From Rhodovulum imhoffii (GTDB taxonomy: Bacteria > Pseudomonadota > Alphaproteobacteria > Rhodobacterales > Rhodobacteraceae): 64,000 bases of DNA. A model generated the notes under the pieces. The model did no database searches and was not told the origin of the DNA. It saw only the letters and a list, made by a program, of their open reading frames with translations. Shown one piece after another: positions 4,940 through 60,694 of this stretch. The stretch lies in assembly GCF_003046545.1 (NCBI RefSeq), contig NZ_QAAA01000008.1, forward strand, positions 62,001 to 126,000. The letters run 5' to 3'. The translations under genes were made by a program, and so were the position numbers. Positions within the stretch are counted from its first letter, which is position 1; every line of letters starts with the position of its first letter.

Positions 4940-4980
4940 ATTATTGGTAAGAAAATATAACCAATAATCCCATCTGGCAA
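4940..4980 (-). promoter_or_regulatory. glcDEF promoter with GGT-N11-ACC operator
   Basis: On the minus strand a -35-like TTGCCA (4975-4980) and a -10-like TATTTT (4952-4957) are 17 bases apart. Overlapping the -10 is an inverted repeat with 9-base arms, ATTATTGGT (4940-4948) and ACCAATAAT (4960-4968), separated by 11 bases. TTGGT/ACCAA half-sites are typical of FadR-subfamily GntR regulators such as PdhR, though those usually have a 3-base spacer. The placement over the -10 suggests repression. The same GGT-N11-ACC layout occurs at the gntR-family gene at 26030. Confidence 0.6.
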
Positions 4981-5009
4981 GAATTTTTCCAGACCCCTAT
5001 CTTGCGGCC

Positions 5010-31673: not shown

Positions 31674-31940
31674 GCGGTTTCGCTTTCCTTGCCCCAAGGG
31701 TGACTTTTGCCAAGTGCCACGGGCCGGTGCAAGCCTGTTGACTCAGATCGGGAAACATGGCTTAAGCAGCGCGATATCCGGAAAGGCACAGACCTTCCGG
31801 TCCTGTCCTGTACAGGATCGCCACCCGTCAGCGAGGTTTCGCCCGCGGGTGCCATACGCGTTTGGCAGATTGCCGCGCTGACAGATCGCCCGCCCCGCCC
31901 GACACTGGGGCAACGCTAACGGCACGAAGGAGGCCAGGCC
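31674..31940. promoter_or_regulatory. Divergent region between LysR and ffh genes
   Basis: A 267-base gap. A TTGACT hexamer on the plus strand (31738-31743) has a weak CTTAAG (31761-31766) at 17-base spacing and could serve ffh, whose ATG is preceded by AAGGAGG. No other clear structure was seen. Confidence 0.35.
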
Positions 31941-44859: not shown

Positions 44860-47081
44860 TGGAAGGGCGTGAAATCCGGGTAAGGGGGCAGGTACAGGGT
44901 GTGGGGTTCCGGCCTTTCGTCTGGCTTCTGGCCGAAGATCTCGGGATACGGGGCGAGGTTCTCAACGATACCGAAGGGGTCCTGATCCGCGCCATCGGGG
45001 GGGATCTGAACCGCTTTCAGGCGGCGCTCCGGGAAAACCCGCCGCCGTTGGCGCGGGTTGATTCGGTAGAAAGCTGGCCGATCCGTTTTAGCGCCCTGCC
45101 CCGCGATTTCACCATCGCCCCAAGCGAGGGGAAAGGAGCGGAAACCCGTGTAACGCCCGATGCCGCCACCTGTCCGGCCTGCCTGGAAGAAACCCGGACA
45201 CAGGGGCGGCGGCAGGGCTATGCCTTCACCAACTGTACCCATTGCGGGCCACGCTTTTCGATCCTGACCGGGTTGCCTTACGACCGGGCGCAAACGACGA
45301 TGGCCGGGTTCGACATGTGCCCGGCCTGCCGGGCGGAATACGCAAACCCCGCCGACCGGCGCTTTCACGCGCAGCCCATCGCCTGCCCTGCCTGCGGACC
45401 CCGCCTGTGGATGGAACCTGCGGCAAAGGACCCGATCGCCGCCGCCGCGCGTTTGCTGGCCGGGGGCAAGGTCTTGGCGATCAAGGGGTTGGGCGGGTTT
45501 CATCTGGCCTGCGACGCCCGCGACGCCACCGCCGTGGACCTGTTGCGCCGCCGCAAGCACCGCCCGGCCAAGCCCTTTGCCCTGATGGCAACAGAGGCGA
45601 TTCTGCCCGGGTTTTGCGCACCGGATATGGCAGAGATCGCCCTGATGCGCGACCCCGCCGCGCCGGTGGTGCTGGTGCGCGCGACCGGCACACTGCCCGA
45701 CACCGTGGCGCCGGGGATGACACGGCTGGGGGTGATGCTGCCCTACACGCCGCTGCATCATCTGCTGCTGGAAGCGTTCGGCGGTCCGCTCGTAATGACC
45801 TCGGGCAATCTCTCCGGGGAGCCGCAGGTCATCGCCAATGACGAAGCCCGCAAAAAGCTCGGCCCGTTCGTGGATTCCTTTCTGATGCATGACCGGCCCA
45901 TTGCCCGCCGTCTCGATGACGGGGTGGAGTGCGCCAGCCCGCCAATGGTGCTGCGCCGGGCACGGGGGCGGGTGCCGGGTACGCTGCCGCTGCCCGAGGG
46001 GTTCGCCGACGCGCCACAGGTGCTGGCCCTCGGCGGGCAGATGAAAGGCGCGATCTGCCTGACGAAGAACGGCCAGGCCCTCCTGTCGCACCACCTTGGC
46101 ACGCTCGACGATGCGCTTTGCTGGGAAGCCTTTCGGCAGGCGCAGGAGGATTACGCCGCCCTTTTCGATCATCGTCCGGAGATCGTCGCCTGCGACACCC
46201 ATCCCGGCTATCGCACCACGGGTCTGGCGCCCTCACTGGGCCTGCCTGTAGAACATATACAGCACCACCACGCCCACCTTGCCGCCTGCCTGGCGGAGGC
46301 CCTCTGGCCGCTCGACGGCGGGCCCGTGGCCGGGATCATCCTGGATGGCACCGGCCTGGGAAGTGATGGCACCTTTTGGGGGGGGGAAGTTCTGCTGGGC
46401 GATTACCGAAGCGCGCGGCGGGTGGCGCATCTGGCCCCGGCGCCGCTGGCAGGGGGGGACATGGCCGCGCGGCAACCGTGGCGCAACCTCCTGGTGCGGC
46501 TGGATCAGGCGGGGCTTGGCGACCTGGCCGACAGGCTGCTGGCGGATTGCCCCCGCGACGCGCTGCGGGCCGCCACCAGGGCCGGGGTGAACGCGCCGCA
46601 AAGTTCCTCCGCCGGGCGGCTGTTCGATGCCTTCGCCGCCGGGCTGGGGCTTTGCCCCCTGGCCCAAACCTACGAGGGCGAAGCCGCGATGCGCCTGGAG
46701 GCGCTGGCCGAAGGTCATGACGCCCCGGCCTACCCGATGGGCAGAGCAGACGGCGTGATCGACCCCGCACCCCTGTTTGCCGCCTGGGCCGGGGAGCGCA
46801 CCACCCGCCCGCCGGGCGAGATGGCGGCCCGGTTCCACGCCGGTCTGGCCGGGGCCTTTGCACAAGAGGCCCGGAGCCTGGTGGAACGCGGGCAGGCCCG
46901 CGCCGTTGCCCTGTCGGGGGGGTGCTTTCAGAACGCGCGGTTGCTGGCGGCCACCCTGAAAGCCCTTGAGGGGGTGCCGGTTCTGGTGCATCGGCAGGTC
47001 CCGTCCAATGACGGGGGGTTGGCCCTGGGGCAAGCTGTCGCAGCGGCAGCCCGCCATCTGGAAAATTCGGAAACTCCCTGA
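44859..47081 (+). CDS. hypF: Carbamoyltransferase HypF
   Basis: HypF turns carbamoyl phosphate into the carbamoyl group that HypE converts to the cyanide ligands of the NiFe site. The 740-residue protein has an N-terminal acylphosphatase domain (EIRVRGQVQGVGFRPFVW), two zinc fingers (CPACLEE...CTHCGPR, CPACRAE...CPACGPR), a YrdC-like domain (KVLAIKGLGGFHLACDA, SGNLSGEPQVI) and a C-terminal Kae1-like domain (HHHAHLAACLAE, GIILDGTGLGSDG, LSGGCFQNARLL). It starts at the TGATG junction with hupV, within the sensor gene block rather than with hypCDE. Confidence 0.96.
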   Translation: MEGREIRVRGQVQGVGFRPFVWLLAEDLGIRGEVLNDTEGVLIRAIGGDLNRFQAALRENPPPLARVDSVESWPIRFSALPRDFTIAPSEGKGAETRVTPDAATCPACLEETRTQGRRQGYAFTNCTHCGPRFSILTGLPYDRAQTTMAGFDMCPACRAEYANPADRRFHAQPIACPACGPRLWMEPAAKDPIAAAARLLAGGKVLAIKGLGGFHLACDARDATAVDLLRRRKHRPAKPFALMATEAILPGFCAPDMAEIALMRDPAAPVVLVRATGTLPDTVAPGMTRLGVMLPYTPLHHLLLEAFGGPLVMTSGNLSGEPQVIANDEARKKLGPFVDSFLMHDRPIARRLDDGVECASPPMVLRRARGRVPGTLPLPEGFADAPQVLALGGQMKGAICLTKNGQALLSHHLGTLDDALCWEAFRQAQEDYAALFDHRPEIVACDTHPGYRTTGLAPSLGLPVEHIQHHHAHLAACLAEALWPLDGGPVAGIILDGTGLGSDGTFWGGEVLLGDYRSARRVAHLAPAPLAGGDMAARQPWRNLLVRLDQAGLGDLADRLLADCPRDALRAATRAGVNAPQSSSAGRLFDAFAAGLGLCPLAQTYEGEAAMRLEALAEGHDAPAYPMGRADGVIDPAPLFAAWAGERTTRPPGEMAARFHAGLAGAFAQEARSLVERGQARAVALSGGCFQNARLLAATLKALEGVPVLVHRQVPSNDGGLALGQAVAAAARHLENSETP

Positions 47082-47267
47082 CCGGACAGGCTGCCCGCCG
47101 GTAAGTCCGTTTCCGGATGCGGGTGCGGAAAAGCTCCGCAAATTCCGGCTTTTATATTGTTTTAAAAAGAAAAAACCTGCCGAGGGCCCAAAACGGCTTT
47201 TCTTTTGCCGTGCCCGGCGCCGCCTGATTGCATGGGGCCGGTAACACATTTGCAACGGGAGGCCCCC
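47082..47267 (+). promoter_or_regulatory. hupS upstream region
   Basis: The 186-base gap has a hairpin TGCGGA / TCCGCA (47124-47140), an A/T tract of about 30 bases (47148-47176) and a second hairpin ACGGC / GCCGT (47193-47211). In R. capsulatus the hupS promoter needs HupR and the bending protein IHF; the A/T tract could host IHF. The HupR site described there (TTG-N5-CAA) was not found in this gap, nor in about 160 bases of the hypF end. No sigma-54-type GG/GC element with proper spacing was found either. Confidence 0.5.
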
Positions 47268-50747: not shown

Positions 50748-51527
50748 ATGAGCCAGAGAACCAAACCCCATCATACGCTCGAAGATTACCTTCCGATGGA
50801 AGCTTCGCGCCTGACCGGAGACGCCACGGCGAAGGATCTGGAAAGCATCCGCCTGCGCACGGCGGTCTATGTCTACGAAGTGCCGGTGCGCATCTGGCAT
50901 TGGGTCAACGCCGCGGCAATCCTGGTCCTGGCGATCACGGGCTATCTTATCGGCTCGCCCCCGCCGACGATGGAGATCGGCGAGGCCACCAACCAGTTCG
51001 TGTTCGGCTATATCCGCTTTGCGCATTTCACTGCGGGCATGATCCTGACGATCGGGTTCTTCGCGCGCATCTACTGGGCCTTCGCGGGCAATTCGCACGC
51101 CCGGCAGATGTTTTATGTCCCGGTCTGGAACCCGCGCTGGTGGAAAGAGCTTCTCTACGAGGTCCGGTGGTATTTCTTCCTCGAAAAGGAACCGAAGAAG
51201 TTCGTCGGCCACAATCCGCTGGCCCATCTTGCGATGTTCTGCTTCATCACGCTGGGAATGACCTTCATGATCATCACCGGCTTTGCCCTCTATGCAGAGG
51301 GCGCCGGCCAGGGCAGCTTCTTCGACGGCGCCTTCGGCTGGGTGCTGGGGCTTGTCGGCAATTCCCAAAGGCTGCATACGCTGCACCACCTGGGAATGTG
51401 GGCGATCCTCATCTTCGTGATCATCCACGTCTATGCCGCGATCCGCGAAGACATCATGTCCCGTCAGTCGATGCTGACGACGATCGTGTCCGGCTGGCGC
51501 AGCTTCAGGGACAACCGTCCGAATTGA
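50748..51527 (+). CDS. hupC: Hydrogenase cytochrome b subunit HupC
   Basis: A 259-residue diheme cytochrome b that anchors the hydrogenase and passes electrons to the quinone pool. There are four helices with the heme histidines in VRIWHWVNAAAILVL, IRFAHFTAGMILTIG and HTLHHLGMWAILIFVIIHVYAAI. A long N-terminal cytoplasmic segment precedes them. It is the last gene of the structural part; two terminator-like hairpins follow, and then an AT-rich gap before hupD. Confidence 0.95.
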   Translation: MSQRTKPHHTLEDYLPMEASRLTGDATAKDLESIRLRTAVYVYEVPVRIWHWVNAAAILVLAITGYLIGSPPPTMEIGEATNQFVFGYIRFAHFTAGMILTIGFFARIYWAFAGNSHARQMFYVPVWNPRWWKELLYEVRWYFFLEKEPKKFVGHNPLAHLAMFCFITLGMTFMIITGFALYAEGAGQGSFFDGAFGWVLGLVGNSQRLHTLHHLGMWAILIFVIIHVYAAIREDIMSRQSMLTTIVSGWRSFRDNRPN

Positions 51528-51536
51528 GGCTGCCGG

Positions 51537-51591
51537 GGCGCGGGCCGACCTCCCAGGCCCGCGCCATATGCAATATAAGTTTGCATTTTTT
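51537..51591 (+). terminator. Tandem terminator-like hairpins after hupC
   Basis: The first is a perfect 10-base stem, GGCGCGGGCC (51537-51546) / GGCCCGCGCC (51556-51565). The second is ATGCAA (51568-51573) / TTGCAT (51581-51586) and runs into six T in a row (51586-51591). The second has the form of an intrinsic terminator. They come 9 and 40 bases after the hupC stop. Confidence 0.65.
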
Positions 51592-51781
51592 AATAAAAGT
51601 GGAATCTTACTTTTCAATAAAGCAGCACTCCAATACCGCATGTTCTGATTTTTAAATTTAAAATCAATCGTATGCAAAATGTCGCACCCCAATACAAATT
51701 CTGGCTTCTGAAACCGGGTGTAAGATTTACTGTCGGTTTTCAAGAAGGGCGCAAGCCCTACTGCCACAGCAGGGAGGCAAG
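51592..51781 (+). promoter_or_regulatory. AT-rich hupD leader with inverted repeats and hairpins
   Basis: A 190-base region far richer in A/T than its surroundings. It holds AAAAGT / ACTTTT with an 8-base loop (51595-51614), and TGATTTT / AAAATCA with a 7-base spacer (51646-51666), a possible operator. Nearer the gene are two adjacent hairpins: AGGGC-GCAA-GCCCT (51746-51759, a GNRA-type loop) and CTGC-CACA-GCAG (51761-51772), the second touching the AGGGAGG ribosome binding site. This looks like a promoter and structured leader for the maturation genes. Confidence 0.5.
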
Positions 51782-52402
51782 ATGGCATACGTACCCCCCC
51801 GCCGCGTGCTGATTCTGGGCATCGGCAATGTCCTGTGGGCCGACGAAGGCTTTGGCCCGCGCTGCATCGAAACCCTGGCGGCACGCTACGCCTTCCCCGA
51901 CCATGTAAAGCTGCTCGACGGCGGGACGCAGGGTCTCTATCTGCTGCCCTTCCTCGAAGACGCGGATGACCTTCTCATCTTCGACGCCGTGGATTACGGC
52001 CTTGAGCCCGGCACGGTGAAAACCCTCCGGGACGACGATGTCCCCGCATTTCTCGGCGCGAAAAAGATGAGCCTGCACCAGACGGGTTTTCAGGATGTCC
52101 TGGCCACGGCGGACCTGAAGGGCTGCCGGCCCGAGCGCATTACCCTGATCGGCTGCCAGCCGGCGGAACTGGAAGATTACGGCGGCGGCCTGCGCCCCGT
52201 CGTTTCGGAACGGATCGGCACGGTAATCGATCTTGCCATCGCCGAACTGGCCGCGTGGGGCGTGGATGCTCAGGCCGGGCAAAGCAACGGCGCGGATCTG
52301 GCGGACCCCTCGATCCGTCGTGACGCATACGAAGCCGGACGCCCTTCGGCCCGGACGGCTTGCCGCATCGGCGATGACCGGTTCTTTCCGGGGGCGGACT
52401 GA
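51782..52402 (+). CDS. hupD: Hydrogenase maturation endopeptidase HupD
   Basis: HupD cuts the C-terminal peptide from HupL after nickel insertion. The 206-residue protein has [22 protein letters not shown] (with the nickel-binding Glu), [10 protein letters not shown] (with Asp) and [12 protein letters not shown] (with His). It is preceded by AGGGAGG and a structured leader, and starts the maturation gene group. It overlaps hupF by one base. Sequence specificity for HupL is inferred, because HupV has nothing to be cut. Confidence 0.95.
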
Positions 52403-52722
52403 TGTGTATCGGCCTGCCTCTTCGGATCGACGCCATCGACGGCATCGCCGGAACCGCGCGGGAGGACGACCGGACCGTTCTGGTCGACCTGTCGCTGACC
52501 CCGGACGCCCGCCCCGGCGACTGGGTGCTGACCTTTCTGGGCGCCGCGCGCGAGGTCATCTCCGCCGAGACCGCGCAAAAGATATCGGCCGCCCTGGCAG
52601 GCTTGCGCGCCGCGATGCAGGGCGGCGACCCCGGAGATGCCTTCGCGGATATTGACGCCCGTGCGCCTGCGCTTCCCCCCCATCTTCAGGCCGCGCTGGA
52701 CGCGGGCAAAGCCCAAGGATAA
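52402..52722 (+). CDS. hupF: HypC-like hydrogenase chaperone HupF
   Basis: A 106-residue HypC/HupF-family chaperone that begins MCIGLPLRI, with the N-terminal Cys after Met that is essential in HypC. It is longer than HypC by a C-terminal extension (residues ~75-106). In Rhizobium HupF protects HupL from oxygen during assembly. It starts at a TGATG junction with hupD and is followed by hupG. Confidence 0.92.
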
Positions 52723-52727
52723 CCGCC

Positions 52728-53102
52728 ATGCACCCCCTGATCGCGCGACTGGAAAGCGACTTGAACTGGCCCCGCCTGCACACGCTGGAAGAGGCCGAGC
52801 ATTTTACCGCGCAGCCGGGCTATCACTGCCTGTTCATCCCCGGAAACCCGCACCGCAACCTGGAAACCGCCGACGCGGCGGTGATCCTGCCGGAACTGCG
52901 GCAGGCGTTTCAGAATGTTTTCGACTGCGCCATCGTGGACGACACCATAGAAGCGGCCCTGCGAGAAACCCACCGGGCGCTGAAAACGCCGGGGTTTTTG
53001 TTCTTCCGGTCCGGCACCTATCTGGGCGCAATCGAAAAGATCCGGGACTGGGACGACTATCTGGCCCGCATTCCCCATATTCTGTCGCTCGCAGATGCGT
53101 AA
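52728..53102 (+). CDS. hupG: Hydrogenase small-subunit accessory protein HupG (HyaE type)
   Basis: A 124-residue thioredoxin-fold protein of the HupG/HyaE family. It lacks the CxxC active site of thioredoxin. The C-terminus FFRSGTYLGAIEKIRDWDDY is a family-typical block. HyaE binds the Tat-carrying small subunit, and HupG is needed for HupS assembly in air. It sits between hupF and hupH. Confidence 0.9.
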   Translation: MHPLIARLESDLNWPRLHTLEEAEHFTAQPGYHCLFIPGNPHRNLETADAAVILPELRQAFQNVFDCAIVDDTIEAALRETHRALKTPGFLFFRSGTYLGAIEKIRDWDDYLARIPHILSLADA

Positions 53103-53114
53103 AAGGAGCCGCCC

Positions 53115-53951
53115 ATGACCTCGGATTTCAGAAATCCACCCAGGGGGTTCGGCCCCGGATCGCAACCGGTCCCGGAAGGCGAAGGGCTGGAATATATGCC
53201 ATTGCCTTCGGATATGTGGACCTATTCCCCCCACCTGCCGGAAGTCGAGAACCCGGAGGCGGTCGTCCCGGCACTGGACGTGCTCCGCCACATTGCCCAG
53301 GCCTGCACGGCCTGTGCCCGGGACGGCACAGGCGCGCGGTTCGATCTTTCCGGCCTGCCCCCCGCCGCACGCCGGCTGATCGCCGATACGCTTGGGCAGG
53401 GAGAAGTGGCAATGAAGATCCGCTCCGTACCGGCACTGGCGGTGCAGGAAAGCGTGTTCGCCGGCGTGTGGCAGCTTCTGGGCGAAGGTGTCGACGCGGT
53501 CGAGATCGGTGCCGTGCCCGAAACGGCCCGGTCCGGCGCCTTCCGGCCCATCCGCGCCGCGCAGGGGGCCAGCACCCCACCAGGGGAAGGCGTCATCAAC
53601 GCCCCCTCGCTTCTGGCCGAATTGCATGACAAGGCCCTGAACTACCGCCCCGGCTCGCAAACCTACGTGGTGAATCTGTCGCTGCTGCCCCATACCGAGG
53701 CAGACCTAGCCTGGCTTGACGCGGCGCTGGGAGAAGGCGGCGTCACGATCCTGTCGCGCGGGTATGGCAATTGCCGCATCACCGCCACCGCCACCGCCCC
53801 GGTCTGGCGGGTACAGTTTTTCAACTCGATGGACACGCTGATCCTCGACACCTTCGAGGTCGCCGACATACCCGAGGTCGCCCTTGCCGCGGCGGAAGAT
53901 CTCTCTGACAGCGCCGCCCGGATCCACGAAGTTCTGGAGGCCATCCGATGA
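53115..53951 (+). CDS. hupH: Hydrogenase accessory protein HupH (HyaF type)
   Basis: A 278-residue HupH/HyaF-family protein with no catalytic motif. Seen blocks include PLPSDMWTYSPHLPEVE, AQACTACARDGTGARFDL, and VQFFNSMDTLILDTFEVADIPEVALAA near the C-terminus. HyaF/HupH act with HupG in HupS maturation. It overlaps hupJ by four bases, so both are translated together. Confidence 0.92.
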   Translation: MTSDFRNPPRGFGPGSQPVPEGEGLEYMPLPSDMWTYSPHLPEVENPEAVVPALDVLRHIAQACTACARDGTGARFDLSGLPPAARRLIADTLGQGEVAMKIRSVPALAVQESVFAGVWQLLGEGVDAVEIGAVPETARSGAFRPIRAAQGASTPPGEGVINAPSLLAELHDKALNYRPGSQTYVVNLSLLPHTEADLAWLDAALGEGGVTILSRGYGNCRITATATAPVWRVQFFNSMDTLILDTFEVADIPEVALAAAEDLSDSAARIHEVLEAIR

Positions 53952-54718
53952 ACGGTCGTTTCGAAGGCAGCTATTTGGGGGCGAGCGATCGCATCAGCCC
54001 CGCCGCCGTCATGGAATGCAAGATCTGCTGGACCCCTTACGACCCCGCAGAGGGTGACGAGATGCGTCAGGTTTTGCCCGGGACGCCCTTTGTCACCTTG
54101 CCCGGCGACTGGAAATGCCCCACCTGCGACGCGCCGAAAGAGCAGTTCATGGTCCGCGAGGACCCCGGTGCCGTCCCCGACCCTCTGGCCGCCTGGATCG
54201 CCGACCGCAAGGACGCGCTGGAGGCCGACTTTCGCGAGGTCTGGAACGCGAAGATGCGCGATGTGCCCCTGGTGAACAAGGCGCTGCGGGTCCAGGCCGT
54301 GGGCTTTACCGCCCATGAGGGCCGACCGCTGGGAGTTCTGGTGGCGCCGTGGTTCATGAACCTCGTGCTTCTGCCTGCCCCCGGCGAGGACTGGTCCGCC
54401 CTGACGCCCGGCGCGAAGGAGATAATCGCGTTTCCCTCCGGCGACTACGAGTTTCTCCACAACAGGCGTGAGATGACAGGCGGTTACAAGGCTTGTTCGC
54501 TGTTTTCGCCGATGTCGGATTTCGCCACCCAGATGCAGGCGGTCGAGGTCGCGCAGGCGGTGATGGTCGCCCTGTTCGACCCGGAAAACCGTGCCGAAAC
54601 AGACCGTGCCGCCGAAATTCGTGCCGCCCGCGAAGCCGAAACCATCCCCCCGGCCGACGATCCCGCGCCCACGCGCCGCAAGGTGATCACCGCCGGCCTC
54701 GCGGACGAGAGCGAATGA
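53948..54718 (+). CDS. hupJ: Rubredoxin-HybE fusion HupJ
   Basis: A 256-residue fusion. Residues ~20-70 form a rubredoxin with MECKICWTPYDPAEGD and WKCPTCDAPKEQF, four cysteines for one iron. From ~80 onwards it matches HybE/HupJ (ALRVQAVGFTAHEGRPLGVLVAPWFMNLVLLP). In Rhizobium these are two genes, hupI (rubredoxin) and hupJ; in Rhodobacter they are fused. The likely role is electron transfer or oxygen protection while HupS clusters are built. It overlaps hupK by four bases. Confidence 0.93.
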   Translation: MNGRFEGSYLGASDRISPAAVMECKICWTPYDPAEGDEMRQVLPGTPFVTLPGDWKCPTCDAPKEQFMVREDPGAVPDPLAAWIADRKDALEADFREVWNAKMRDVPLVNKALRVQAVGFTAHEGRPLGVLVAPWFMNLVLLPAPGEDWSALTPGAKEIIAFPSGDYEFLHNRREMTGGYKACSLFSPMSDFATQMQAVEVAQAVMVALFDPENRAETDRAAEIRAAREAETIPPADDPAPTRRKVITAGLADESE

Positions 54719-55614
54719 GCGGCGAGCTTCATATCTCTCTGGACGTGCATGCGGGCCGCATCGCGCCGCGACTCATAGCGCCGGAGGACCTGCCGATCGG
54801 CCGTTTGCTGCAAGGCCGCAGTTCGGTCGAGGCCGCCCATACTCTGCCGCACATCTTCAGCCTCTGCCCCAACGCCCAGCGCCTCGCCGCCCAGATGACG
54901 CTATCCCTGCCCCCGGAGACCAGAACACGACCGGCGCTCGCCCGCGAAATCCGGCGGGACCACCTGTTACGGCTGTTCGTGTTCTGGCCCGCGCAGCTTG
55001 GCCTGACGTCGCGGCCGCTGCCGGCGGATGTCCACCTGGGCACGGCTCTGGCCGGCCCGTCAGGCCGTCTGCCGACCCCTTCCGAATTCGATCTCTGGCT
55101 GGAGCGGGGGGCAGGCACCGCCCCCCTGTTTGCCCGGCTGGCCGAAACTTTCGCCCCCGGCCAGGCCGTCGCGAACCTGCCCCTGCCACGTGACCCCCTG
55201 CACGAAACCGCGGTGGAAAACTCCACCGCCGCGCGTCAATGTCACGCCCCCCTGATGAAAATGGCAGAGGCCCGCTATGGCCGGGGGCCCCTGTGGCGCG
55301 CCCTGGCGCGGCTGGTGGAGCTTTTCGCCTGCCTCAACGGCAGCCTGCCCGCGCAACCCCGTCTAAGCAACGGCATCGCCGTGGTTCCCGCCGCACGGGG
55401 GGCTTATGCGATGTCGGCGCGCGTGGAAAACGGGCGGGTGGTCGCCTTTGCCCGCCGCACCCCCACCAACCATCTGCTGGCGCCCGGCGGCGCCCTGGAA
55501 CAGGCCCTGGCCAGCCTGCCGGCGCACAAGGCCCAGTTCGCACGGCTGGTCGTGGACATCATGGACCCATGTGTGCCGGTCAGGCTTCAGGATCAGGAGG
55601 CCGGCAATGCATGA
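54715..55614 (+). CDS. hupK: Hydrogenase accessory protein HupK
   Basis: A 299-residue HupK, distantly related to hydrogenase large subunits. It has kept traces of them: [11 protein letters not shown] in place of the first RxCGxC motif, [15 protein letters not shown] in the middle, and MDPCVPVRL at the C-terminus in place of DPCxxC. It cannot bind nickel with all four cysteines. In Rhizobium HupK acts as a scaffold for the Fe(CN)2CO unit in air. It overlaps hypA by eight bases. Confidence 0.9.
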
Positions 55615-55948
55615 AATGTCCCTTTGCGAAGGCATCCGCGGAATCGTAGAGGATCAGGCCCGTGCCCACGGGTTTGCCACGGTGAAAACCCTGCGGGTGG
55701 AGATCGGCCGTTTCGCCGGGGTGGAAAAGGAGGCACTGGCCTTCGCCTTCGACGTCGTCATGCGCGGCTGCCCCGCCGAGGGCGCAGCCCTTGAAATGAT
55801 CGACCTGCCCGGTCGTGCCCTCTGTTACGATTGCGCGGAGGAGGTTGAAATCGAAAACCGGCTGGACCCCTGCCCGCGCTGCCACGGCGGCAAGCTGATG
55901 CCTGTGGGAGGGGATGAAATGCGGATCAAGGACATGGAGGTAATCTGA
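55607..55948 (+). CDS. hypA: Hydrogenase nickel-insertion protein HypA
   Basis: HypA hands nickel to the large subunit, together with HypB. The 113-residue protein begins [10 protein letters not shown], with His2 as a nickel ligand, and has the zinc site [20 protein letters not shown]. An AGGAGG site precedes the ATG inside hupK. The single-base junction with hypB points to coupled synthesis of the two partners. Confidence 0.95.
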
Positions 55949-56745
55949 TGTGCACGGTATGCGGGTGCGGCGGACATGTCCACGGACATGGCCACAGCCA
56001 CGATCATCACCACGGCCCCGACGGGGATCTTCACTTCGGGCAGGGCAGGGCGGGCACCCATGTCGCAGGTGTCTCGCAGGCCCGGCTGATCGAGATAGAA
56101 ACGGACATTCTGGCCAAGAACGACGCCTATGCCAGCGGCAACCGGCGGGTGCTGCGGGCGCTGGGGGCATATGCGGTGAATCTCGTATCCTCGCCCGGAT
56201 CGGGCAAGACCTCCCTGCTGTGCCGCACCATCGCCGCCCTGGGGCAAACCCCGCTGGCGGTGATCGAGGGGGACCAGCAAACCACCAACGATGCCGACCG
56301 CATCCGCGAAACCGGGGCCCGGGCGATCCAGATCAACACCGGAAAGGGCTGCCACCTCGATGCGCACATGGTGGGCCACGCGATGGATCACCTCGACCTG
56401 CCGCACGGTGCGCTGCTGTTCATCGAAAACGTCGGGAATCTCGTCTGCCCCGCCGGATTCGACCTTGGCGAAGACGCGAAAGTGGCGATCCTCTCGGTGA
56501 CCGAGGGCGAGGACAAGCCCCTGAAATACCCCGACATGTTCACCGCGGCGAAGCTTGCGGTTCTAAACAAGGTCGATCTGGCCCCCCATTGCGACGCTGA
56601 TCTTGACGCCTATGAAGCCAACCTGCGCCGCGTGAATCCGGAGATCGAAGTGCTGCGCCTTTCCGCCCGCACCGGCGCCGGTATGGAAAACTGGCTGGCG
56701 TGGCTGCATGCGCGGCTGGGCGAAAAATCCCGCGGAGCGGCCTGA
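55948..56745 (+). CDS. hypB: Hydrogenase nickel GTPase HypB
   Basis: HypB is a GTPase that supplies nickel to HypA. The N-terminus has MCTVCGCGG and a His-rich run ([14 protein letters not shown]) that can store Ni2+ or Zn2+. The G domain has [14 protein letters not shown] (P-loop), [19 protein letters not shown] and [10 protein letters not shown], 265 residues in all. It overlaps hupR by one base. Confidence 0.97.
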
Positions 56746-58223
56746 TGGCCACCAGCCCGCGCCCTGCGATCCTGCTTGTCGATGACGAGCCGCATTCGCT
56801 TTCCGCGATGCGGATGGCGCTGGAGGACGAATTCGATGTCCTCACCGCCAACGGGGCCCGCGAGGCCGAGAAGCTTCTCAGCGAAGAGTGGGTGCAGGCC
56901 GTCATCTGCGACCAGCGAATGCCCGAGATGACAGGGGTGGAGTTTCTCACCCGCGTGCGCGAACGCTGGCCGGAAACAGTACGCCTGATCGTCACCGGCT
57001 ACACCGATGCCTCCGCGATGGTTTCAGCCATCAACGATGCAGGAATCCACCAGTTCCTGACCAAGCCGTGGCACCCCGACCAGCTTCTGGTTGCGGCCCG
57101 CAACGCGGCGCAGCTTTTCACGCTCAGCCGCGAGAATGAGCGCCTGACGCTGGAGATGCGGTTTCTCAACTCCACCACCGAATCGCGCCTGGAAAAGCGC
57201 CGCAAGGCCTTGCGCGAAGGTATGGGCTTCGAAACCATCCTGCGCACCCCGCACTCCCCCCTGTCCGGGGTGGTGGACGCCGCCCGCCGGTTTGCCAGCT
57301 TCGACCTGCCCGTCCTGCTGACGGGGGAACCGGGCACCGGCAAGGCCCAACTGGCGCGGGCGATGCATTATGGCTCACTCCGCTCGGACAAACCGTTTTA
57401 CGAACTCAACCTCGCCGGCATGCCCGCCGATCTGCTAGAGATCGAACTTCTGGGGGCCAAGCGCGGGGTCCTGTCCGGGGGCGTCGCGCGGATCGGGCTT
57501 TTGCAGAAGGCCGACCGGGGGACGCTCTATCTCGGGGCCATAGAAACCGCGGCCCCCGCACTGCAACTTGCGCTGCTGCGGGTTCTGACCGAGGGCACCT
57601 TCACCCCTGTCGGCGGGCAGGAAAGTGTCGGCACCAACATGCGCCTGATCTGCGGGTCGGGGACCTGCCTGCGCACCCGCGTGGCCGATGGCCTCTTCCG
57701 GGGCGATCTTTACTTTGCCCTGTGCGCCGGAGAGATCGCCGTGCCGCCGCTGCGAGCGCGCCGGGGGGATGTGGCGCTTCTGGCCCAGACCCTGCTGGCC
57801 GACATTTCCGCCCAGCACGGCAAGCCCGTGCACGGGCTGGACGAACCGGCGCTTGAATTTCTGGAAAACTACGATTGGCCCGGCAACATGCGCGAACTGA
57901 AGAACGAGATCACCCGGATGCTTGTCTTCGCGCAGGAACCCGTCCTGGGGGCGGATCTGATCTCCCGCCACATCCTTCAGGCCCCGCCCGGCGAGGACGG
58001 GGCGGATCGCTCCGCCGATTCCGCCCTGACGGCGGAGGGCACCCTGAAAGACCGGGTCGAGTTGATGGAAATGCGTATCCTGCGCGAAACCCTTACCCGC
58101 CATCGGTGGAACAAGAGCCGCGCCGCCGCCGAACTGGGCCTGTCCCGCGTCGGGCTGCGCGCGAAGCTGGACCGCTACGGCATTGCCGCGCCCGTCACCG
58201 ATAACGAGAACGAGGAGGACTGA
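56745..58223 (+). CDS. hupR: Response regulator HupR (degenerate NtrC type)
   Basis: HupR activates hupSL. The 492-residue protein has a receiver domain (VDDEPHS; Asp56 in [12 protein letters not shown] is the phosphate site), an AAA+-like central domain and a C-terminal Fis-type helix-turn-helix ([20 protein letters not shown]). The central domain has [16 protein letters not shown] for Walker A but lacks GAFTGA: the matching place reads [12 protein letters not shown]. This agrees with HupR of R. capsulatus, which works with the housekeeping sigma factor and is active when not phosphorylated. It lies between hypB and hypC. Confidence 0.95.
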
Positions 58224-58227
58224 CGCC

Positions 58228-58521
58228 ATGTGTCTTGGGATTCCCGGCCAGATCGTGGCCATAACCGATGTCGACCGCATGATGGCGATGGCCGAGGTTT
58301 CCGGCGTCCGCCGCGAGATCAATATTGCCTGCGTGCTGGACGGACCGGCCGAATTGCTGGTGGGCAAGTGGGCGTTGATCCATGTGGGCTTCGCCATGTC
58401 GCTGATCGATGAGGAAGAAGCCGCCGAAACCCTGCGCGCCCTGCAAGAGCTCGGCGAAGCGCAGGAAGCACTGGAAGCCATGGCCGAGGGCCAGAAAGCG
58501 CTGGAAGAGGGCAAGCCATGA
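58228..58521 (+). CDS. hypC: Hydrogenase maturation chaperone HypC
   Basis: A 97-residue chaperone that carries iron with HypD to the large subunit. It begins MCLGIPGQIVAI, with the essential Cys2, and ends the core in WALIHVGFAMSLID. It then has an acidic helical tail (EAQEALEAMAEGQKALEEGK) that makes it longer than most HypC. It is distinct from hupF, which is the enzyme-specific paralogue. It overlaps hypD by four bases. Confidence 0.95.
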   Translation: MCLGIPGQIVAITDVDRMMAMAEVSGVRREINIACVLDGPAELLVGKWALIHVGFAMSLIDEEEAAETLRALQELGEAQEALEAMAEGQKALEEGKP

Positions 58522-59660
58522 AATTCGCATCGGAATTCCGCAACCCGAAAGCCGCCCAGGCGGTACTGGCCCGCATCTCGGAGGTGGCGGACGCCATCGG
58601 TGCAACCGCGGAAAACCCCGTGAGCATCATGGAAATCTGCGGAGGTCACACCCACGCGATTTTCCGCTACGGGCTGGACAAGCTGGTGCATGAAGGGGTC
58701 GAGTTTATTCATGGCCCCGGTTGTCCGGTCTGCGTGCTGCCAATGGCACGGGTGGACGAATGTGTCGAAATCGCCGAGCGCGAAGGCGTCATATTCACAA
58801 CGTTCGGCGATGCGATGCGGGTTCCGGGAACCCTGAAATCGCTGATGCAGGCCAAGGCCGGAGGCGCCGATATCCGCATGGTGTATTCGCCGCTCGACGC
58901 GCTGGAACTGGCGCGACGCAACCCGGAACGCGAGGTCGTGTTCTTCGGGCTGGGGTTCGAGACGACGACGCCCTCCACCGCGTTGTCCATCCAGCAGGCC
59001 GCGCGCGAAGGGCTGAAGAACTTCAGCGTCTTCTGCAACCACATCACCGTGCCTGAACCCATCCGTGCCCTGTTGCAGGATCCGCACATGATGCTGGACG
59101 GTTTCATCGGCCCCGGCCATGTCAGCATGGTGATCGGCACCCACCCCTACGATTTCATCGCGCAGGAGTACTCCAGACCCATCGTGGTGGCCGGCTTCGA
59201 ACCGCTGGACCTGCTGCAATCGGTTCTGATGGTGCTGGAACAGATCCGCGACGGGCGCGCGCAGGTGGAAAACCAGTATGCCCGCGTGGTTCCCGCGCAG
59301 GGCAATCCGGTTTCCCTGGCCGCAATTGCCGACGTCTACGAACGCCGCCCCTCTTTCGAATGGCGCGGCCTGGGGGAAATCGACGCCTCGGGCCTGCGCA
59401 TCCGCGCGAAATATGCCGCCTTCGACGCGGAGGAAAAATTCTCCGTGGGCTACGCCGCGGGCCCGCGCCATGTGCCCGAGCCGGAGGGCTGTTCCTGCGG
59501 GGCGGTCATGACCGGCCGTATCAAGCCCACCGCCTGCGCACAATTCGGGCGCGGGTGCACGCCGGACACACCTTTGGGCGCGCTGATGGTCAGTTCCGAA
59601 GGGGCTTGCGCGGCCTACTGGCAATATCGCGGTGCCCGAGGGGCGGAGGCTGCCGAATGA
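58518..59660 (+). CDS. hypD: Hydrogenase maturation protein HypD
   Basis: HypD is the Fe-S scaffold where the Fe(CN)2CO unit is built with HypC. The 380-residue protein has EICGGHTHAIFRYG, GPGCPVCVLPM, GFETTTPSTAL and, near the end, EPEGCSCGAVMTGRIKPTACAQFGRGCTPDTPLG with the 4Fe-4S cluster cysteines. It overlaps hypC and hypE by four bases. Confidence 0.97.
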   Translation: MKFASEFRNPKAAQAVLARISEVADAIGATAENPVSIMEICGGHTHAIFRYGLDKLVHEGVEFIHGPGCPVCVLPMARVDECVEIAEREGVIFTTFGDAMRVPGTLKSLMQAKAGGADIRMVYSPLDALELARRNPEREVVFFGLGFETTTPSTALSIQQAAREGLKNFSVFCNHITVPEPIRALLQDPHMMLDGFIGPGHVSMVIGTHPYDFIAQEYSRPIVVAGFEPLDLLQSVLMVLEQIRDGRAQVENQYARVVPAQGNPVSLAAIADVYERRPSFEWRGLGEIDASGLRIRAKYAAFDAEEKFSVGYAAGPRHVPEPEGCSCGAVMTGRIKPTACAQFGRGCTPDTPLGALMVSSEGACAAYWQYRGARGAEAAE

Positions 59661-60694
59661 ACGCCCCCACCCTCAGCCGACTGCGCGATACGCGCGTGAC
59701 GCTTTCCCATGGGGGGGGCGGACGCGCGATGCGCGACCTGATCGACGATGTCTTCGCAACCGTCTTCCGCCCGCCGGGAATGGAGGATCAGGCCCGCCTT
59801 TATGACAGCGCCCTGACCGAACCCGGCGCGCGCCTTGCCTTCACCACGGACAGTTTCGTCGTGACACCGCTGGAGTTTCCGGGCGGCGATATCGGCAAGC
59901 TGGCGGTCTGCGGAACGGTAAACGACCTGGCTGTGGGCGGGGCACGGCCGCTATGGCTGTCCGCCGCCTTCATCATCGAGGAGGGGACGGAGATCGCGCT
60001 GCTGCGCCGGGTGGCCGCCACCATGGCCGCCGAAGCGCAAAAGGCCGGCATCCAGATCGTCACCGGCGACACCAAGGTCGTCGGGCGGGGGGCGGCGGAC
60101 GGACTTTTCGTGACGACCTCTGGCGTGGGCGTGATCGCGCCGGACCGCGACATGGCCGCCCATCACATCCGTCCCGGCGACGTCGCTATCGTGAACGGCG
60201 TTCTGGGCGACCACGGTGCCACAATCCTCGCGGCGCGGGGGGATCTTGCGCTTTCATCGGATATCGCATCCGACTGCCAGAGCCTTGGCCACCTGATGCA
60301 GGACGTGCTGGCCGCCGCCCCCGCCACCCGCGCCGCACGGGATGCGACGCGGGGCGGCCTTGCCTCGGCACTGAACGAAATGGCCGAGGCCGCACAGGTC
60401 GGAATCGAAATCGACGAAGACGCCTTGCCCCTGCGCACAGAGGTCAAGGGTATGTGTGAAATCCTCGGCCTGGATCCGCTCTACCTGGCCAACGAGGGCA
60501 CGCTGGTGCTGTTTGTCCCTTCCGATCAGGCCGGGGCGGCGCTTGCGGCGATGCGCGCCCGACCCGAAGGCGCGGGGGCCGTCGCGATAGGGCATGCAGT
60601 AGCGGGTGCGGCACAGGTGCGGATGCGCACCGCCTTCGGCGGAAGCCGTATCGTTGACATGCTGGTCGGCGAACAGTTGCCCCGGATCTGCTAG
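59657..60694 (+). CDS. hypE: Hydrogenase maturation protein HypE
   Basis: HypE dehydrates the thiocarbamate on its own C-terminal Cys to thiocyanate, giving CN for the active site. The 345-residue protein belongs to the PurM/SelD fold (LSHGGGGRAMRDLI, TTDSFVVTPLEFPGGDIGKLAVCGTVNDLAVGGA) and ends in PRIC with the Cys as the last residue, as required. It closes the hydrogenase cluster and overlaps the convergent histidine kinase gene by four bases. Confidence 0.97.
   Translation: MNAPTLSRLRDTRVTLSHGGGGRAMRDLIDDVFATVFRPPGMEDQARLYDSALTEPGARLAFTTDSFVVTPLEFPGGDIGKLAVCGTVNDLAVGGARPLWLSAAFIIEEGTEIALLRRVAATMAAEAQKAGIQIVTGDTKVVGRGAADGLFVTTSGVGVIAPDRDMAAHHIRPGDVAIVNGVLGDHGATILAARGDLALSSDIASDCQSLGHLMQDVLAAAPATRAARDATRGGLASALNEMAEAAQVGIEIDEDALPLRTEVKGMCEILGLDPLYLANEGTLVLFVPSDQAGAALAAMRARPEGAGAVAIGHAVAGAAQVRMRTAFGGSRIVDMLVGEQLPRIC

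Follow-up and report, generated by a model that had tools for sequence, protein, structure and literature searches.

Unphosphorylated HupR activates uptake hydrogenase genes under H2, according to three reports (PMC5133592, PMC9603517, PMC9449697), and control by H2 is described for hupSLC or hupABC (PMC9603517). In autotrophic R. sphaeroides, a further report gives log2 increases of 10.1, 11.2, and 8.6 for hupS, hupL, and hupD and of 6.7, 5.9, 5.2, and 5.0 for hupH, hypA, hypC, and hypD (PMC8920488). On these values, the joint induction fits co-regulation and read-through equally well. Among the titles and abstracts of open-access papers searched, none reports an activator site before hupD.

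The glnAp2 promoter has an NtrC-type tandem enhancer, in which two 17-bp dyads lie about 32 bp apart, upstream. The HupR site of R. capsulatus is TTG-N5-CAA, and HupR of that species activates transcription together with the sigma-70 form of RNA polymerase, not the sigma-54 form. The ompA transcript of E. coli carries a stabilising stem-loop at its 5′ end.

Here we analyzed the gap between hupC and hupD in a 64,000-nt stretch of Rhodovulum imhoffii DNA (the window). Like glnAp2, hupD has a pair of 17-bp dyads that lie well upstream and are separated by about three helical turns, a candidate regulator with a Fis-type HTH, and an IHF-like site in between. Unlike glnAp2, hupD upstream regions have no common sigma-54 element, and HupR has lost GAFTGA. 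Judged from its sequence, the hupD promoter is a tandem-site promoter of the NtrC-family type. We consider it likely that the gap serves as promoter of hupD-hypE, with HupR as the most likely activator at the same paired sites as at hupS.

Gene Layout and Sampling of Relatives

In the window, hupU/hupV-like genes and hypF (recognized by eye), hupS-hupL-hupE-hupC, the gap, and a run from hupD to hypE were discerned. The sequence-only reading had described a 254-base gap before hupD in an otherwise tightly packed cluster. The gap is real, and the remaining hupS-to-hypE junctions measure -8 to +12 nt.

51528-51781, + strand: hupC-hupD intergenic region, 254 nt, with a terminator-like hairpin, a predicted activator-site promoter, and a short predicted leader
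51782-60694, + strand: hupD-hupF-hupG-hupH-hupJ-hupK-hypA-hypB-hupR-hypC-hypD-hypE, a single run of overlapping or closely spaced genes
56745-58223, + strand: hupR, encoding an NtrC-family response regulator and candidate activator, with GVLSGG in place of the GAFTGA loop (by eye)

Family matches were obtained for HupD, HupF, and HupR and weakly for HupG; a family match for HupH was sought and not found. The other gene names in the run were assigned by gene order and sequence.

HupC was found in 10 of the 16 genomes searched from the same genus and in 37 of the 295 from the family, and the best 30 of these 37 were taken as loci; a HupD scan provided the best 80 loci of 583. The 119 loci (L002-L120) were reduced to 92 hupD upstream regions by dropping those without a HupD match (L027, L028, L032, L034), those in which the start was missing (L033, L106), further unusable rows (L039, L102, L112, L114-L119), and 12 duplicates with identical last 150 nt. 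The gap could be measured in 82 of the 92 and spanned 178-634 nt with a median of 281 nt; 68 gaps fell within 250-330 nt.

Paired Dyads Upstream of hupD

51569-51585, no strand assigned: putative upstream activator dyad TGCAATATAAGTTTGCA (degenerate), 31 bp from the dyad at 51600-51616
51600-51616, no strand assigned: putative downstream activator dyad TGGAATCTTACTTTTCA, with 3 mismatches to the consensus

A 17-bp palindrome with the consensus TGGAAAGTnACTTTCCA (TGGAAAG-N3-CTTTCCA) exceeded the 99% shuffle level in 86 of the 92 hupD upstream regions, and two dyads 30-32 bp apart were present in 85, counts that are not independent because the matrix was trained on these same sequences. Independent tests are provided by the hupS sets described below and by a scan of the window with same-genus sequences excluded from the matrix. 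The shuffle nulls for the dyads preserve base composition only, and the null for the hupD pair was computed on 40 of the 92 sequences. Of 61 hupD pairs, 50 had a spacing of 30-32 bp, and the tandem dyads upstream of the predicted promoter are spaced by whole helical turns.

Only the dyad at 51600-51616 came within 3 mismatches of the consensus in the window, where 0.13 such matches were expected. When the 64-kb window was scanned with the matrix free of same-genus sequences, the hupD pair ranked first (24.9) and the hupS pair second (18.4). The third-ranked place, at 4945-4991, is unrelated to hup, adjoins a glycolate oxidase-like gene, and drew nearly all of its score (18.0) from one site. 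As a single word, the strict consensus is rare and not enriched genome-wide. At up to 3 mismatches, R. imhoffii itself has one match, at hupD, versus five for the reversed control; at up to 2 mismatches, 14 one-strand matches were counted in 38 genomes (in 11 of them) versus 21 for the control, 9 of which came from one genome. The signal therefore resides in paired, placed sites rather than in a single word. Both this lack of enrichment and the score of the place at 4945-4991, nearly equal to that of the hupS pair, weigh against the proposed control.

At ten loci, the 2.4-2.5 kb preceding hupD contained no match to HupC. All ten retained the dyad pair, nine at the usual place and one (L108) about 100 bp further upstream. 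Thus, the element belongs to hupD.

A palindrome, ATTGGT...ACCAAT at 4943-4965, lies within the third-ranked place, between a glycolate oxidase subunit-like gene on the - strand and a membrane protein gene on the + strand. We take it to resemble an operator of the GntR/GlcC type.

The Same Pair at hupS

47068-47115, no strand assigned: dyad pair in front of hupS, at 47068-47084 and 47099-47115, with a spacing of 31 bp

The matrix built on hupD was applied to two sets of hupS upstream regions. The first comprised 28 sequences, i.e. 30 loci minus L138 (short) and L151 (start not aligned), and in every one of them a pair with a spacing of 30-32 bp exceeded the 99% shuffle level. In the second set of 18, from which L170 (a second hydrogenase) was omitted, 16 exceeded the same pair score; the failures were L168 (Methylobacter) and L169 (Paracoccus, broken hupS). 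The hupS promoter of the Rhodobacteraceae, which is under HupT/HupR control, has paired 17-bp dyads detectable with the same matrix and mostly 31-32 bp apart (14 of 22 pairs). Their distance to the start codon is similar to that at hupD. The two promoters also differ: the hupS dyads lean by eye to YGGWAAG-N3-CTGACCR, the start region is different, and a leader hairpin that is clear at hupD is only suggestive at hupS (best z -2.6 among nine segments).

At L169, which lies in the same genome as L065 (Paracoccus mutanolyticus), the HupS match is broken by two in-frame stops, which suggests a decayed gene for the hydrogenase small subunit.

Predicted Promoter Elements between the Dyads and hupD

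51646-51666, no strand assigned: 21-base A+T inverted repeat overlapping the IHF-like site, with a stem that is not clearly conserved
51662-51674, + strand: IHF-like site AATCAATCGTATG, 1 mismatch to WATCAANNNNTTR
51705-51710, + strand: weak -35-like element CTTCTG, 17 nt before the -10 element, recognized by sequence
51728-51733, + strand: predicted -10 element TACTGT within the conserved motif CTGCAAAGCnTACTnTCACT, placed by the motif and its fixed distance from the dyads

The motif CTGCAAAGCnTACTnTCACT exceeded the 99% null level in 44 of the 92 upstream regions, the window included, and starts 56-86 nt before hupD. It contains TAnnnT, which resembles a -10 element. The motif was located without reference to the dyads, and its distance from the dyad center was nearly fixed: 119-123 bp in 32 of 42 cases, 150-152 bp in nine in which the upstream copy scored best, and 129 bp in one. 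CTTT or CTTC occurred 17-27 nt before the -10 motif in 13 of the 44 motif-bearing regions, compared with 2-5 of 44 in four neighboring intervals. An IHF-like site with at most one mismatch was present in 49 of 85 relatives versus about 12 expected from shuffles; 41 of these 49 sites are on the + strand, and 40 of those fall at -115 to -144. By sequence match, an IHF-like site thus lies between the putative activator sites and the predicted promoter.

That hupD-hypE might have a promoter of its own was part of the sequence-only reading, and this proposal is now well supported by the dyad pairs shared with hupS, the fixed spacing between dyads and -10 element, and the IHF-like site. The passing of the -10 motif in only 44 of 92 upstream regions counts against the proposed promoter. 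So does a sigma-70 consensus scan of 51300-52000, which returned no promoter (0.3 expected), although an activator-dependent promoter may well escape such a scan. A sigma-54 promoter was considered and rejected: TGGYM-N5-7-TTGC is not common, occurring in 3 of the 92 hupD upstream regions (0.4 expected in shuffles).

The inverted repeat TGATTTT-N7-AAAATCA is present as the sequence-only reading had it, with a fold z of -2.3. Self-versus-cross pairing (see below) in three frames gave z values of -2.8, -1.4, and -1.1, a weak signal in one frame.

Two further elements were seen in the upstream regions. The element TGACAAAATGTCGCAG lies at 51672-51687 in the window, between the IHF-like site and the promoter, and at -117 to -125 from hupD in L013, L012, L009, L011, L019, L044, and L062. 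At up to 4 mismatches it was found in 13 of 92 hupD upstream regions (about 1% in shuffles) and in none of 29 hupS upstream regions, and is therefore outside the shared core. A near reverse complement of it stands upstream of hupS in the Rhodobacter loci L160-L162. The second element, a palindrome-like sequence of approximately CGGYATRC-N4-GAATRCCG, was recognized by eye near the start region of hupS (L123, L132, L133, L137) and at about -150 at hupD (L008-L011).

The Hairpin after hupC

51537-51565, + strand: GC hairpin after hupC, a perfect 10-bp stem, terminator-like, without a T tract

The sequence-only reading had placed two terminator-like hairpins behind hupC. Both stems are present, and the region of the first has a fold z of -5.1, but no T tract follows it (the next bases are ATATGC). 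The second is a weak 6-bp A+T stem (ATGCAA/TTGCAT) that is indeed followed by six T but coincides with the conserved dyad at 51569-51585. A consensus terminator scan found no terminator on the + strand and a single site on the - strand, and in the window the GC hairpin lacks the T tract of an intrinsic terminator. Among relatives' gaps of 150-450 nt, a scan for hairpins plus T found a GC hairpin with a T tract after hupC in 46 of 79. RNA polymerase coming from hupS would meet the GC hairpin, where transcription may terminate. As the dyads of the window are degenerate and its hairpin has no T tract, read-through from hupS to hupD may contribute here.

Predicted Leader RNA

51740-51781, + strand: predicted 5′ leader of about 40 nt, its start placed at about 51740-51742 from the -10 position
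51746-51759, + strand: 5′-proximal hairpin AGGGC-GCAA-GCCCT, supported by self-versus-cross and shuffle tests
51772-51777, + strand: ribosome binding site GGGAGG, recognized by sequence, with similar sites in relatives

Tandem hairpins at 51711-51739 and 51746-51759, the latter with a GCAA loop, and a ribosome site before 51782 were present as previously described from the sequence. In the 44 upstream regions with a -10 motif, the predicted leader is 34-64 nt long. RNAalifold returned no structure on MAFFT alignments, which were poor, so that this result says little; alignment-free self-versus-cross tests were therefore used, which ask whether the two arms of a stem pair better when taken from one sequence than from different ones. 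The GCAA hairpin, the 21-base inverted repeat, and pairing with the start codon were evaluated on the 85 of 92 upstream regions left by a 70% identity filter, and covariation of the stem at -10 on the 44 with a -10 motif.

The region of the GCAA hairpin gave z values of -6.8, -5.5, and -7.6 in three frames (-7.6 at -48 to -20) and -2.5 in a fourth, overlapping frame. Twelve other segments ranged from -2.1 to +1.0, the lowest falling in the part between dyads and promoter. The best hairpins at the place of the GCAA hairpin averaged -6.4 kcal/mol, a level reached by none of 20 shuffle sets, whose mean was -4.7 kcal/mol. The hairpin follows the -10 motif at a median distance of 13 nt (range 0-28), i.e. 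about 7 nt after the predicted start, and its stem and loop sequences vary between genera. It is the only named structure in the leader that is clearly conserved as a structure. As it keeps its place while its sequence changes, it most likely protects the mRNA. It is comparable to the ompA stem-loop in its placement, close to the 5′ end (here a predicted one) and ahead of the ribosome site, and in having a sequence free to vary; the comparison is between ompA and a hairpin known from its sequence, beside a predicted start.

Of the two tandem stems, only the GCAA hairpin is thus conserved in relatives. The first, whose stem surrounds the predicted -10 element and overlaps it, appeared by eye to covary in several Rhodovulum but was rejected with self-versus-cross z values of -0.6 to -1.2. 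Long-range pairing with the start codon was likewise rejected (z 0.8 and -0.6; 1.5 for Rhodovulum alone).

An Rfam search gave no match above chance level for the leader, whether in the window at the gathering score, in 51480-51850 to an E value of 10, or in 20 relatives' loci at the gathering score. The sole match in the window at gathering level was RF01793 (ffh sRNA) at 31807-31859.

HupR as Candidate Activator

HupR of the window consists of receiver, AAA+, and Fis-type HTH domains, and HupR matches were found in all 26 genomes examined. Weak cases were G131 (best match 45% identical), G206 (match in two pieces), and G280 (matches of only 31-53%). As HupR has lost GAFTGA, a sigma-70 promoter is expected, as for R. 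capsulatus. With its gene inside the hupD operon, HupR is the best candidate for the activator that would bind the dyads. The main weakness of this assignment is the mismatch between the dyad and the TTG-N5-CAA site: this pattern occurs in 2 of 18 hupS upstream regions and is absent from the four dyads of the window as read.

The following sequence of events can be proposed. A dimeric activator would bind the two conserved 17-bp dyads, which lie 31 bp apart, with their centers some 130 and 160 bp ahead of the predicted start. Between the dyads and the weak -10/-35 promoter, the DNA is probably bent by IHF. Transcription would start near 51741, yielding a 40-nt leader that carries the hairpin shortly behind its 5′ end. 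HupR, the response regulator that belongs to the HupUV/HupT hydrogen sensor, is the most likely activator. Its gene is the ninth in the hupD operon, so that hydrogen would induce the enzyme, its assembly factors, and HupR itself through a positive loop. A joint rise of hydrogenase and maturation genes could be explained in this way, and positive autoregulation of hupR is predicted. We tentatively put forward the wider idea that the hydrogen circuit of the Rhodobacteraceae is a two-promoter positive-feedback switch, in which HupR acts on hupS as well as hupD through the tandem 17-bp site, of which no earlier description was found in the open-access searches, and hupR itself is driven from the second promoter. 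If true, the first exposure to H2 would latch the synthesis of enzyme and maturation factors. The dyad is also a candidate for the motif bound by the H2-responsive activator of the hup genes.

Weighing of Other Explanations

The sequence-only reading had raised the idea of a folded leader sensing metal, oxygen, or a protein. The leader would accordingly be a structured RNA regulator (a riboswitch, a protein-binding leader, or a thermometer) through which such a signal controls hupD translation. The 273 nt containing the whole gap do fold better than shuffles (z -3.1), as does 51700-51781 with both tandem hairpins (z -2.1), one hairpin is conserved through sequence change, and the minimum-energy fold of the window pairs CGTATGC with GCATACG across the start codon. 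However, the predicted leader itself (51740-51800) has a fold z of just -0.8, and most of the proposed leader lies upstream of the predicted transcript. Across the leader, covarying stems with conserved nucleotides in loops or junctions were not seen; one hairpin covaries, and its loop is variable. The variation of its stem and loop between genera speaks against a pocket for a ligand or a site for one particular protein. Neither the -10 stem nor the start-codon pairing covaries, and Rfam has no match for the leader in the window or the 20 relatives' loci. An RNA regulator thus appears very improbable, and the guessed sensing leader gives way to a concrete, widely conserved control element.

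We hold each of two other explanations to be unlikely. According to one, transcripts that read through from the hupS promoter supply hupD-hypE, and all that the gap does, as a partial terminator, is to lower dosage. The GC hairpin without a T tract speaks for this, as does the stepwise fall of induction along hupL, hupD, and hypD in R. sphaeroides (PMC8920488), and four Rhodovulum genomes have neither a detectable T-tract terminator nor dyads. It leaves unaccounted for the dyad pairs in 85 of 92 hupD upstream regions and at all ten loci without an upstream HupC match, and the nearly fixed spacing from dyad to -10 element. According to the other, the tandem dyads bind a regulator different from HupR. 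In its favor are the dissimilar HupR site, the scarcity of that pattern upstream of hupS, and four Rhodovulum genomes that retain HupR without dyads at hupD, although three of the four, those with a fetched hupS upstream region, keep the pair at hupS (L124-L126). The scarcity of near-consensus sites in the R. imhoffii genome, with a single one at up to 3 mismatches, fits a dedicated regulator, and the operon's own regulator gene is hupR. Moreover, G131, the genome with divergent HupR, has no pair at hupD (L024) and the weakest hupS pair of the 28 (L150, 4.8).

Exceptions among Relatives

The seven hupD upstream regions of 92 without a pair are L003, L005, L006, L007, L024, L095, and L099. The first four are from Rhodovulum and have GC-rich, shorter gaps of 178-212 nt, in which a scan for T-tract terminators detected none. 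Their genomes retain HupR at 79-80% identity. The loss of the pair with HupR kept implies that dyad control is dispensable, and in these four the sequences suggest that read-through probably replaces the promoter.

In G131, FNR-like palindromes are found at hupD (TTGACATAGGTCAA, L024) and at hupS (TTGATCCAGATCAA, L150). With a HupR of 45% identity, no dyads at hupD, and these palindromes, the genome looks as if control had been rewired.
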